The notes under the pieces are model-generated. The model was not told the origin of the DNA. It saw nothing but the letters and a program-made list of their open reading frames with translations, and ran no database searches. A program made the position numbers and the translations under genes. Shown here in pieces: positions 2,335-5,334 of a stretch of DNA of 5,334 nt. The DNA lies in contig CAMEQX010000115.1 of the NCBI GenBank assembly GCA_945933905.1, positions 1 to 5,334 on the forward strand. The letters run 5' to 3'. Within the stretch, counting starts at the first letter, position 1, and every line of letters starts with the position of its first letter. The DNA is from an uncultured Clostridia bacterium. Lineage in GTDB: Bacteria; Bacillota; Clostridia; Oscillospirales; Ruminococcaceae.

Positions 2335-3429
2335 ATGAAACCACAAATTATACACGAGAAGATGAAAAAAATGTTTATGCGAAGCAGGCTTGTAAAAGCG
2401 GCAATTTTCGCTATGATAACAGCGTCGGCGCTTTTGCTCACGGGCGCGCTTTATTTCCGCGATACCGTTTATATAACGGACGACGGAGTGACAAGAGAAA
2501 TCAAGACAAATCAGTTTGATAACTACGCGATACTTAAAAGTGAAAACTATTCGCTTGAAGCAGACGACAGAATTTCCGTTGAAACAGACTCCACAAAGAA
2601 AAAACACATCATCATAAACCGCGCGTTTGAGCTGACGGTGAACGCGGACGGAGAGAGCTTCCCCGTGAAGCTTACGGAAGGCACGGTCGCGGACGCGCTG
2701 GAAAAAGCGGGAGTTACAATCGACGAGGACGATTTCGTGAATTTCAGGCTCAACGCTTCGGTTTACGACGGAATGAAGATTACCGTTTCGCGCGTGGAAT
2801 ACGTTGAAAGAAATATCGAAAGCGCACTGGAATGCGAGAAGATTTATAAGGACAACTCAAACTGGGTAATCGGCACGGAGGTTGTTCTCGAGGAGGGCGC
2901 AAACGGCGCTCACGTCACGACTTATAAGGACAAATACGTTGACGGAAAGTTTGTTTCTTCGGAGATTGTCGCCGATGAAATCACAAAGGCGCCCGTGTCG
3001 GCGGTTGTTGAAAGAGGAACAGCGCTTGCCGAGCCGTATGCGAAGATGGAAAATCCCGAGCAGCTGAAGCTGGTTGACGGAATTCCCGAGAATTACACGA
3101 GAATTATTTCGGGAAAAGCAACGGCATATTCCGCGAAGCCCGGCGCACTTACGGCGAGCGGACGTTATGCGGTTGTGGGAACGGTTGCGGTTAATCCGAA
3201 TGTAATTCCGTACGGAAGCGAGGTTTATGTTGTCGCGCAGGACGGAAGCCGCGTTTATGGATATGCGATTGCGGCGGATACCGGATACGGAATGATGGAC
3301 GGGTCGATAGCGGTTGATGTGTTTATGGGAAGCTATGAGGACTCGTGCAAATGGGGCGCGGTGTATGTTGATATTTATGTGCTTTCCGAGGGGGATAACA
3401 GGTATATAGGACAGGCGGAAAGAGGATAA
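2335..3429 (+). CDS. Membrane-anchored cell-wall protein with DUF348, G5 and 3D domains (YabE-like)
   Basis: The 364-residue product has a basic N-terminus and one hydrophobic segment at about 20-41, acting as signal or anchor, so the rest lies outside the membrane. Two DUF348-type repeats follow (about 44-84 and 97-140, the second with VKLTEGTVADALEKAGV), then a G5 domain (about 153-228), and a 3D domain (about 258-350). The 3D domain starts ISGKATAYSA and carries its three defining aspartates: Asp315 in ADTG, Asp322 in MDG and Asp328 in VDVF. The 3D fold is related to the MltA barrel, so peptidoglycan lytic transglycosylase activity is likely; G5 domains are thought to bind wall sugars. Bacillus YabE has the same order with more DUF348 repeats and about 437 residues, so this is a compact member. 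GGAGG lies 9 bases before the ATG. It is transcribed alone, between a consensus promoter and a terminator. A WalR-type box upstream fits wall-stress control. Confidence 0.92.
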   Translation: MKPQIIHEKMKKMFMRSRLVKAAIFAMITASALLLTGALYFRDTVYITDDGVTREIKTNQFDNYAILKSENYSLEADDRISVETDSTKKKHIIINRAFELTVNADGESFPVKLTEGTVADALEKAGVTIDEDDFVNFRLNASVYDGMKITVSRVEYVERNIESALECEKIYKDNSNWVIGTEVVLEEGANGAHVTTYKDKYVDGKFVSSEIVADEITKAPVSAVVERGTALAEPYAKMENPEQLKLVDGIPENYTRIISGKATAYSAKPGALTASGRYAVVGTVAVNPNVIPYGSEVYVVAQDGSRVYGYAIAADTGYGMMDGSIAVDVFMGSYEDSCKWGAVYVDIYVLSEGDNRYIGQAERG

Positions 3430-3433
3430 AATG

Positions 3434-3463
3434 CGAGCTTGCGGAGACGCGAGCTCGTTTTTT
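3434..3463 (+). terminator. Rho-independent terminator of the 3D-domain gene
   Basis: CGAGCTTGCG (3434-3443) pairs with CGCGAGCTCG (3448-3457) through ten pairs, one a T-G wobble, closed by a GAGA (GNRA) tetraloop and followed by six T. It starts 4 bases after the stop codon. Confidence 0.92.
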
Positions 3464-3502
3464 GCAAGCTGAAAAGGGCGCGAAGCGAAAAAAGTTTTAG
3501 GT

Positions 3503-3524
3503 CAAGCCTTTTTCAAAAGGCTTG
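3503..3524. repeat. Perfect 10-bp inverted repeat
   Basis: CAAGCCTTTT (3503-3512), two bases, AAAAGGCTTG (3515-3524). There is no T-run directly after it on either strand, so it is not a normal terminator. It lies inside the palindrome cluster and looks like part of an intergenic repeat element. Confidence 0.75.
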
Positions 3525-3530
3525 TGGGGC

Positions 3531-3547
3531 GTGGGGCAAAGCCCCAC
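3531..3547. repeat. Perfect 7-bp GC-rich hairpin with AAA loop
   Basis: GTGGGGC (3531-3537), AAA, GCCCCAC (3541-3547). It follows the previous palindrome by 6 bases and precedes the GCGAAGC units. No T-run follows. Confidence 0.75.
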
Positions 3548-3658
3548 ACTTGAGCGCGAAGCGCAACTCGGCGCGAAGCGCCGCCACTCGCGGCGAAGCC
3601 GCGGACTAGAGCGCGGCAAACGCGTTCAAAAGCGCTAAAGGCGTTTCTCCCCCCCAAA

Positions 3659-3731
3659 GCATTTTCATCGGCGGAAAGCCGATGAAAATGCAGCGATTTT
3701 TCGGGTTCGATGCCCGAAAAATCGCCCGCGC
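3659..3731. repeat. Double-hairpin module, copy 1
   Basis: Hairpin A: 3659-3672 pairs with 3678-3691 (14 perfect pairs) around GGAAA. A single A (3692) joins it to hairpin B: 3693-3705 pairs with 3713-3725 (13 perfect pairs) around the 7-base loop TTCGATG, closed by GG/CC. The tail CCGCGC (3726-3731) follows. The same plan recurs at 3810-3890. No T-run follows, so these are not ordinary terminators. Possible readings are a mobile palindromic element of BIME type or a structured RNA. Confidence 0.8.
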
Positions 3732-3764
3732 CTTCCGCAAAGTCACCTCTATAATAAAAAGCAT

Positions 3765-3785
3765 CCCCCTCACCCCCTCCCGCCC
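3765..3785 (-). other. G-quadruplex motif on the minus strand
   Basis: On the minus strand there are four G-runs of 3, 3, 5 and 5 with loops of 1, 1 and 3 bases (C, A, TGA). On the plus strand this is CCCCC-TCA-CCCCC-T-CCC-G-CCC. It lies between the two double-hairpin modules. The motif is clear; folding in the cell is not shown. Confidence 0.6.
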
Positions 3786-3809
3786 ACCTCGCAGCCTTAC
3801 CCCACCAAC

Positions 3810-3890
3810 CGGCTTCCTTCACGCGCACACATTGCGCGTGAAGGAAGCCGAGCAATTTCGGCGGTTCGATGCCGCCGAAATTGCCCGCGC
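3810..3890. repeat. Double-hairpin module, copy 2
   Basis: Hairpin A: 3810-3826 pairs with 3834-3850 (17 perfect pairs) around ACACATT. A single A (3851) joins it to hairpin B: 3852-3864 pairs with 3872-3884 (13 perfect pairs) around TTCGATG, again closed by GG/CC and based on GC. The tail CCGCGC (3885-3890) follows. Stem sequences differ from copy 1 but pairing is complete in both. Confidence 0.8.
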
Positions 3891-3987
3891 AGCCCCCCGA
3901 AGCAGCTCCAACAGCAAAAGCAGCCCAAGAAACAAGCCCTGTTCCTGTTCACGATAGCAAAATATAGTAAAAATGCACAAAACTTTT

Positions 3988-4017
3988 CTTTGATTTAACA
4001 CAAATTTGTAATCAAGG
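3988..4017. promoter_or_regulatory. Nested dyad just upstream of the zinc-ribbon gene promoter
   Basis: ACAAATTTGT (4000-4009) is a perfect 10-base palindrome ending 11 bases before the -35 box. It lies off-centre within a larger dyad, TTGATT (3990-3995) with AATCAA (4010-4015). The position suits a regulator site; no regulator can be named. Confidence 0.4.
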
Positions 4018-4020
4018 CTA

Positions 4021-4049
4021 TTGACGAAACGCACAAAAAATTATATAAT
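4021..4049 (+). promoter_or_regulatory. SigA-type promoter of the zinc-ribbon gene
   Basis: TTGACG (4021-4026), 17 bases, TATAAT (4044-4049). Transcription would start near 4056, leaving a leader of about 69 bases. Confidence 0.85.
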
Positions 4050-4061
4050 AAAAGTAGCTAA

Positions 4062-4100
4062 CCTAAATCATACTCGGGAATTACCCGAACGATTTAAAGG
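4062..4100 (+). promoter_or_regulatory. Two-part stem-loop in the leader of the zinc-ribbon gene
   Basis: TCGGG (4074-4078) pairs with CCCGA (4084-4088) around AATTA. Outside an internal loop, AAATC (4065-4069) pairs with GATTT (4091-4095), and CCT (4062-4064) can pair with AGG (4098-4100). It ends 11 bases before the ribosome site AAAGGA (4112-4117). It matches no riboswitch class I know. Confidence 0.45.
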
Positions 4101-4124
4101 CTTCTTTTGTGAAAGGAATTCAAT

Positions 4125-5334
4125 ATGATTTGTAACAAATGTAACAGTCAAGTGCCCGACGGGGCAAAGTTTTGCCAGAATTGCGGCGCGCTTACCGCTT
4201 CGGCTGCCGAAAAGAATTTCTGCGAAAGCTGCGGTCTCGAGCTTCCTAAGGGAGCAAAATTCTGCACGGTTTGCGGAGCAGCCGTTTCCAAAACATCAAC
4301 CGCAGAGGTAAAGCCCTCTGATGTGCTTGCGCCCGTTACTCCTATCGAGCCCGTTTCCATCGCCCCCGCAGCAGACCTCACCAAAGCTGCCGAGGAAATC
4401 GGAAACAGCGCCGTTTCCATTACCGCAAACGAGCAGCCCGCTTATTCTATCCCCGAGCCTTCAAGCGACTTCTCGATGCCCGAAATCAACACAGAAAGCA
4501 ATGAATTTGCTTCCGCACCGACCATCTTTGAGCAAAGCGAATTCGGCTATATCCCCGAGGCTCCCGTTATCGAAGAAGCTCCCGCGATTGAGGAAATTCC
4601 CGCGATGCCCGAGACTCCCGTGATGCCCGCTGCTCCCGTGATGCCCGAGACGCCCGCTGCTTCGGTTACGCCGGTTACTCCGGTTATGCCCGCAGCTCCC
4701 GAGCCGACAGGCTATTCCGCAGCAGCAGCAAGCTACGGTGCCCCGACGGCAGCTCCGGCTCCCACGCCGACAGTCGCTCCCACCTACGCTCCCGCTCCCA
4801 ATGTCCAACCGGAAAATCCTTTCGGAAACTACGGTATGGGCGCAGCTGCGGTTACTGCAAAGCCTATTAAGAAAAAGAACGTCCTCAAGCCCATTCTTAT
4901 CACGCTCGGCGCAATTCTCGGCGCTGCGCTGATTGCGGCAGGCGTGCTCTTCTTCGTTAACAAGTCCTTCCTCTTTAACCTCGTGCTCGGAAATTCGGGC
5001 TACGCGGCTATGGTTGAAGGCAACTCAATCAAGGATATCACCAACAATATTGACGTCGGCGCAATGTCTCAGGGCATAAAGTCCGCGACAAACTCCATTG
5101 CCGGCACCCTGACGCAGATGTCAAATTATTCATCGGGAATTGTCACCACAAGCGTAAAACCGATGATGTACTCCACGTCAATCGACCCCTCGAGCGTTGA
5201 TTTCAAGACGCTCGTAAACCAGCTCGGCAATATTATGCGCGAGACCTACGGCGCAAATTCCGCGAATATTTCCGTTGATTTTGACGCGGAGCTTACCGAT
5301 ACCGCTCTTTCGCAGCTCCCCGGACTTCTGAACT
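4125..5334 (+). CDS. Double zinc-ribbon, Pro/Glu-rich single-pass membrane protein, partial
   Basis: The frame stays open from the ATG at 4125 to the right edge (403 codons). AAAGGA (4112-4117) lies 7 bases before the ATG. Two zinc ribbons open the protein: Cys3, Cys6, Cys17, Cys20 and Cys33, Cys36, Cys47, Cys50, both CxxC-x10-CxxC with a following Gly. A linker of about 195 residues, rich in Pro, Ala, Glu and Val, carries imperfect repeats such as [11 protein letters not shown] (about 144-192). A basic patch KPIKKK (246-251) precedes one membrane helix (about 257-278). By the positive-inside rule the ribbons are cytoplasmic and the remaining 120-odd residues, Ser/Asn/Thr-rich, are outside. 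The outer part resembles no family I recognise. The plan recalls zinc-ribbon membrane proteins of Firmicutes such as TcaA/YvbJ, but the long linker differs. The gene is transcribed from its own promoter; substrate and function are unknown. Confidence 0.85.

Follow-up and report, generated by a model that had tools for sequence, protein, structure and literature searches.

A modular family of dispersed palindromic repeats, usually following genes, from part of a single Clostridia genus

A train of hairpins in an intergenic gap

The window (the whole 5,334-nt stretch of DNA analysed here) is contig C115 of the home genome G000, which comprises 1.84 Mb in 347 contigs and is 73.5% complete. Two adjacent stretches, 1347-1583 and 1680-1952, encode small HPr-like proteins (PF00381). 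Pfam assignments place a G5/DUF348/3D protein gene at 2335-3429 and a zinc-ribbon protein gene from 4125 onward, and the 695-nt gap between these two genes harbours the hairpins. The features of the gap are given below; the modules between 3503 and 3603 were read from the sequence.

3433-3464, + strand: terminator-like hairpin and T run from the terminator scan (stem 3433-3458, 11 pairs), behind the upstream 3D/G5 gene and before the element
3503-3524, + strand: H1-type hairpin CAAGCCTTTTTCAAAAGGCTTG, the earliest clear module of the train, also in L024 and L141
3531-3547, + strand: hairpin module GTGGGGCAAAGCCCCAC, identical in L024 and near-identical in L141
3554-3603, + strand: three short G+C-rich hairpins, GCGCGAAGCGC, CGGCGCGAAGCGCCG and CGCGGCGAAGCCGCG, modules that recur in other elements
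3632-3655, + strand: core GCGCTAAAGG followed by a decayed H4, whose AAGA-loop hairpin is gone here (intact form for comparison, GCGCTAAAGGGGTTTGGGGGAAAACAAGAGTTTTCCCCC)
3659-3691, + strand: hairpin A1 (H5 family), 14 perfect pairs, loop GGAAA, with relatives in L030, L027 and L038
3693-3725, + strand: hairpin B1, 13 perfect pairs, loop TTCGATG, found by model R1
3726-3809, + strand: linker between the two double hairpins, resembling by eye the linkers of G000 contigs C138 and C142 (L032, L033)
3810-3850, + strand: hairpin A2 (H7 family), 18 pairs, loop CACAT, in alignment A3
3852-3884, + strand: hairpin B2, 13 perfect pairs, loop TTCGATG, found by model R1
4021-4049, + strand: promoter-like site TTGACG-17-TATAAT (11/12), right of the element and before the zinc-ribbon gene

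The last of these was the only promoter-like site seen at 3380-4130. The first-pass annotation had described the two double hairpins as two copies of one module with a kept architecture. Hairpin B was indeed located twice with its 13 perfect pairs and TTCGATG loop, and B1 and B2 are true copies. Hairpin A1 has the 14 perfect pairs claimed for it, whereas A2 has 18 rather than 17, and the two belong to distinct modules with no visible common sequence: A1 is kin to a GCATTTT... palindrome family (for example in G000 contig C42), and hairpins with the loop CACAT and its kin, like A2, occur at five home-genome places including the window and at two in one relative. What had looked like a kept architecture is therefore a juxtaposition of modules. 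Both window copies share the A that links the hairpins and the tail CCGCGC, and neither is general; of 16 aligned hairpin-B copies, 10 have A at the linker position and 4 end in the tail CCGCGC, and only the first C of the tail reaches 90%. Hairpin A1 was flagged in the terminator scan, yet the T run there is an arm of hairpin B.

Both double hairpins fold strongly against dinucleotide shuffles, with z values of -8.38 (sense strand) and -6.98 (other strand) for 3655-3735 and of -11.05 and -8.76, respectively, for 3804-3892; 0 of 200 shuffles matched the real fold in each of the four folds. As had been pointed out, the stems differ while the pairs are kept: B1 and B2 differ at 5 of 13 stem pairs, each time on both arms. 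Further short hairpins and the decayed core lie at 3503-3655, so that the whole element forms a train very roughly 450 nt long, and the double hairpins reported earlier make up its right part.

Copies, module order and distribution

The exact sequence GGTTCGATGCC occurs 15 times in the home genome, each time as a hairpin B with 13/13 pairs, and two further copies with the loop CTCGATG bring the total to 17, each again with 13/13 pairs. A model search for dispersed, covarying copies had been proposed in the first-pass annotation; model R1 recovered the identical 17 home-genome copies, all above 54 bits, and gave strong matches in 3 of 43 genus genomes (G000, G069 and G079), with two others reaching only 28-30 bits. 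The home-genome stems have four sequences, GCGATTTTTCGGG, GCGATTTCGGCGG, GCAATTTCGGCGG and GCATTTTCGGCGG, all 13 places being matched in each, and a fifth stem, GCATTTTCGCCGG, was found in a relative. Alignment A1, made of 16 of the 17 copies (the other is cut by a contig end), had 195/195 cells paired, and 6 of its 13 pairs had changed two-sidedly and none one-sidedly. Slid controls were 36-55% paired and shuffled ones 83.8% on average; as the copies are related, the shuffle count is no probability. Alignment A3, comprising 7 copies of A2 plus B2, had 223/224 cells paired and 6 pairs changed two-sidedly; one pair runs G-C, G-U, A-U, the series expected of RNA.

Chance was rejected as the origin of such hairpins. 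In 20 fetched contigs and the window, many of them picked for having hits, we counted 66 perfect hairpins of at least 10 pairs, many falling in a few loop families, whereas three mononucleotide shuffles of 212,639 bases gave 0, 2 and 0. Mimicry of a tRNA T-arm was also considered, as we take the TTCGATG loop closed by GG/CC to resemble a T-loop. It was dropped because the 7 tRNAs in the scanned stretches have other T-arms and because the loop ends vary, being T-G in 53, T-A in 9, C-G in 6 and C-T in 1 of 69 hairpins (five of them H5-type and one from outside the genus).

The elements have a common order in one sense, namely H1 (AACCTTTTTCTTCAGAAAAAGGTT and kin), short G+C-rich hairpins, GCGCTAAAGG, H4 (GGGGAAAACAAGAGTTTTCCCC) and the variable palindrome H5, followed in some species by B, by H7 or other hairpins, and then by B again. 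The full module set is missing from some elements, and module sets vary between elements, as in BOX-like composites. The train from H1 to H5, with H4 as the hairpin AACAAGAGTT, is the wider core, and hairpin B is an add-on to it, present in three species and the narrowest in distribution. In G089 (L106 and L111, around 1490-1570) H4 and a hairpin are likewise followed by a short linker, a second hairpin and CCGCGC, the stems and loops being different ones.

The core hairpin H4 was found in 21 of the 43 genus genomes in up to 91 copies, and its reversed control pattern had no match in any of the 43. Across a family sample of 297 genomes, H4 occurred in 5 genomes of the same genus, with two single imperfect matches among the 292 genomes of other genera; model R1 gave only three single weak matches beyond the home genome and G069. 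A scan of public genomes for the hairpin-B pattern returned 29 stretches, 27 from two assemblies ('uncultured Clostridia bacterium' and 'Oscillospiraceae bacterium'), the other 2 being from Pseudorhodobacter and Leisingera. A 14-pair perfect hairpin with the loop TTCGATG was noticed in Pseudorhodobacter aquimaris (L046, 3784-3816), far outside the genus. A viral origin was discarded, the hairpin-B pattern having 0 matches in viral contigs and one whole element, L033, having 0 in phage and plasmid records. Rfam gave three hits for the window at E values up to 1, each below its gathering score, and 0 hits for 12 loci totalling 62,778 bases. No published description of the repeat was found in the open-licence literature.

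Placement and comparison of sites

Placement was determined relative to codon-scored gene calls made for this analysis. A first set held 60 elements from three species, none of which lies inside a scored gene; leaving out one duplicate (L063, the same place as L219) and three elements with no scorable upstream gene, 50 of the remaining 56 have their upstream gene on the same strand. Codirectional gaps favour the sense orientation by 22 to 3, and 22 gaps are convergent and 2 divergent. The second set, whose 103 elements come from G094, from G101 and from at most five other genomes and for which genes spanning H4 were excluded, has the upstream gene on the same strand in 75 elements and on the opposite strand in 24 (75 of the 99 scorable; 4 unscorable), with codirectional gaps at 29 to 18 and with 42 convergent and 5 divergent gaps. 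Divergent gaps are avoided in both sets, and a strong sense bias is confined to the first set, that of the second being weak; many sites are shared by descent, so the placement counts are not independent. In G094 and G101 (L252-L291), tandem heptamer-like repeats (TAGAGGC, TAGAAGC) lie just after many stop codons, upstream of the hairpin trains.

The gene order flanking the window is conserved in the relatives examined. In G069, G091 and G092 the two genes are separated by about 191-224 nt and the element is absent. The corresponding site of G079 holds an element with identical first hairpins and different modules thereafter, sitting, as judged by eye, between the stop codon and an apparent kept terminator. 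At the C9 site (S2) both G000 and G079 have an element and G069 has none; sites S1, S3, S4, S7 and S9 are filled in every species compared with differing module sets, and site S5 has identical modules in all three species. Taken one by one, single sites do not distinguish insertion from replacement or loss. Comparing empty with filled sites yielded no excision product, target duplication or exact ends, so mobility rests on the comparison itself; for the MITE-type features, terminal inverted repeats and target-site duplication, the sites were compared by eye, and their edges are too diverged to define ends. We infer that copies move rather than having been lost lineage by lineage. The palindromic mobile element envisaged in the first-pass annotation is thereby supported in kind, by dispersed copies with co-changing stems and by empty orthologous sites. 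In a separate observation, two home contigs align to neighbouring places of G069 (L030 at about 2214, L034 at about 1910; L222, 11018-11064) and both leave the alignment near elements, where a rearrangement point may coincide with a repeat.

Upkeep of the arms and spread of the family

Stem deviations were scored on the sense strand in two sets that overlap at seven loci (L184-L190), the G-T of L188 being counted twice. Among 1616 positions of 118 distinct hairpins from the three species and the genus samples there were 11 G-T, 1 A-C and 15 other deviations, and the one hairpin with an A-C looks like the terminator of a neighbour, read on the opposite strand. The second set (100 distinct hairpins, 1536 positions) gave 5 G-T, 3 A-C and 13 others. 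Terminator-like hairpins outside the elements had 9 of 321 positions not Watson-Crick (5 G-T, 2 A-C, 2 others) and are only a little less perfect than the element stems. The excess of G-T over A-C leans modestly towards RNA, and a mutational strand bias could also cause it. An early DNA-only reading of the 16 hairpin-B copies, which had no G-U, was softened by these later G-U deviations and by the series in alignment A3.

The two-sided changes speak against RNA. In 25 distinct H5 stems of 16 or 17 pairs (out of 44 distinct hairpins), 16 two-sided pair types were transversion-type and 7 transition-type, alongside 4 G-T and 4 other pair types, the commonest pair having been picked arbitrarily in ties; alignment A1 and the H7 part of alignment A3 add, by our reading, 7 transversion-type and 3 transition-type changes. 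The H5 ratio is close to the 2:1 of blind two-arm change, and stepwise RNA evolution should favour transitions. Neither alignments A1 and A3 nor the 25 H5 stems had an excess of G-U-accessible two-sided changes, which fits templated copying of arms better than stepwise selection on RNA. The first-pass annotation had concluded from the joint change of arms that structure is under selection. The joint change is real and the conclusion has less force than it was given, because an arm copied from its partner would show the same pattern without selection, as set out in the parts of PMC8794818 used here. Those parts name loop inversion as a footprint of template switching and also call it rare. The reverse-complementary loops CTTG and CAAG occur on one identical H5 stem (3 and 2 copies) and in 7 and 4 of 95 H5 loops overall. 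No inversion was found in H4 (92 normal, 0 flipped) or in hairpin B (53 normal, 0 flipped), and the commonest H5 loop, CGT (44/95), has no inverted partner, so the loops may be under selection or the copies recent. Templated copying is more likely what keeps the arms matched, and some loops may be under selection.

Recognition by a REP-type transposase, which had also been suggested, was not supported. Of the 43 genus genomes, 9 have PF01797 (Y1_Tnp), among them G097 with 44 H4 copies. The family is absent from G000 (73.5% complete), from both near-complete hairpin-B carriers, G069 (99%) and G079 (100%), and from the four H4-richest genomes, G090, G094, G100 and G101, with 71-91 H4 copies each; for this reason no assignment to RAYT was made. 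H4 copies within 600 nt of each other form 24 pairs in G094 (13 tail-to-tail, 0 head-to-head, 11 tandem) and 6 in G082, all tail-to-tail at a spacing of 240-251 nt. Inverted doublets of hairpin B were not seen, its sense matching that of the element in 53 of 53 cases.

One lead to another protein came from G090, G094, G100 and G101, where a DUF6017 gene has an opposite-sense H4 element just behind it (L325, 2185-3377; L326, 5-1413; L327, 5060-6700; L328, 3501-5197). A facing H4 copy lies in front of the gene in G094 and G101, a doublet in G100 and none in G090. The gene aligns between G100 and G101, as does the element behind it, and the outer flanks do not. Two proteins from these loci were tested; both contain DUF6017 and one contains HTH_36. 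As a general partner DUF6017 was rejected, since 41 of the 45 places examined (of 54 listed) are free of H4 or any other module motif nearby, including all 7 in the three hairpin-B species. No literature on DUF6017 was found among open-licence papers. The association is a lead only, and it is quite improbable that the DUF6017 protein (PF19481) moves or copies the hairpin trains as their own mobiliser while template switching rewrites both arms.

The double hairpins are modules of a dispersed palindromic repeat family which our searches located in part of a single Clostridia genus, for the most part behind genes. We consider it somewhat probable that this family spreads as non-autonomous DNA with the help of a protein mobiliser other than a Y1 (RAYT/IS200-type) transposase, and that its arms stay matched because one serves as the template for the other whenever replicating DNA folds into a hairpin. 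In the transcript of a host gene the hairpins would also form 3' UTR structure, perhaps of secondary importance. Were that structure instead the primary object of selection, the element would be transcribed with its upstream gene, would stabilise the mRNA or end transcription, and would have its arms kept by selection on RNA. The position behind genes with a strong sense orientation in three species, the G079 element lying apparently between stop codon and terminator, the 11 G-T against 1 A-C and the fixed loop sense of H4 and B agree with this. However, the window has a terminator-like hairpin ahead of the element, whose transcription would need read-through; the same gene pair lacks the element in three relatives; the two-sided changes are not biased towards the G-U-accessible kind; and in the second set both the G-T excess (5 against 3) and the sense bias are weak. 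We therefore regard selection on a 3' UTR element as possible but rather unlikely.

A discrete structured non-coding RNA with its own promoter would account for the stable folds and the covariation. It is barely plausible given module combinations that vary from site to site and a sole promoter-like site lying right of the hairpins, and it has no Rfam match. The undescribed structured RNA of the first-pass annotation, taken more broadly, is in keeping with that missing match and with more G-U than A-C among sense-strand deviations, and is graded only as possible. An ordinary REPIN/RAYT system, in which the palindromes would travel in single-stranded form with the help of a Y1 tyrosine transposase encoded at another locus, would suit palindromic, extragenic, high-copy repeats with inverted doublets at near-fixed spacing in G082, and PF01797 is found in 6 of 21 genomes with H4 against 3 of 22 without it. 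The absence of PF01797 from the seven carrier genomes named above makes such a system very unlikely. With the dispersed, templated family preferred over these readings, replication template switching over RNA selection remains the probable source of the matched arms.

By its make-up this is a REPIN/BOX-like modular repeat family, ordinary in kind; what sets it apart are the perfect stems that change on both arms together and the missing expected transposase. REPINs have a short conserved tetranucleotide at the hairpin foot; the tail after hairpin B is not conserved here. Like REP/BIME and REPIN with RAYT, as portrayed in the sections consulted of PMC2817692 and PMC3116915, the family consists of extragenic high-copy palindromes, with inverted doublets of H4 in G082 and for part of the close pairs in G094; unlike them, it lacks a Y1 transposase in near-complete carriers, strings many hairpin modules into a train and has mostly perfect stems in place of the imperfect palindromes of REP. 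BOX of Streptococcus pneumoniae is likewise a composite of modules, the family being set beside it by description, and BOX, RUP and SPRITE share stem-loops, a restriction to few species and an excess between convergent genes, which the authors read as a mark of mobile, parasitic entities (PMC3049150, in the portion drawn on here). The host differs, and here both arms of a stem change together and a single site can have different modules in different species. Stable 3'-end stem-loops, some in repeat families, are also concentrated behind genes and between convergent genes, and in the passages used of PMC1590033 they are counted singly, in contrast to the ordered trains with interchangeable modules found here. 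Template-switch maintenance of hairpins shows the same jointly changed arms and loop inversion footprint, in RNA genes according to the extracts of PMC8794818, whereas here it is proposed for an intergenic repeat.

The movement of REPs and REPINs is attributed to RAYT transposases, and a family of similar habit, inverted doublets included, in genomes that lack such a gene would indicate a second route of spread for bacterial palindromes. The co-changing arms also show that covariation, usually taken to mark a functional RNA, is possible in a repeat for which copying at the DNA level explains it at least as well, and with dozens of copies at comparable sites the question of RNA or DNA becomes testable in this genus.
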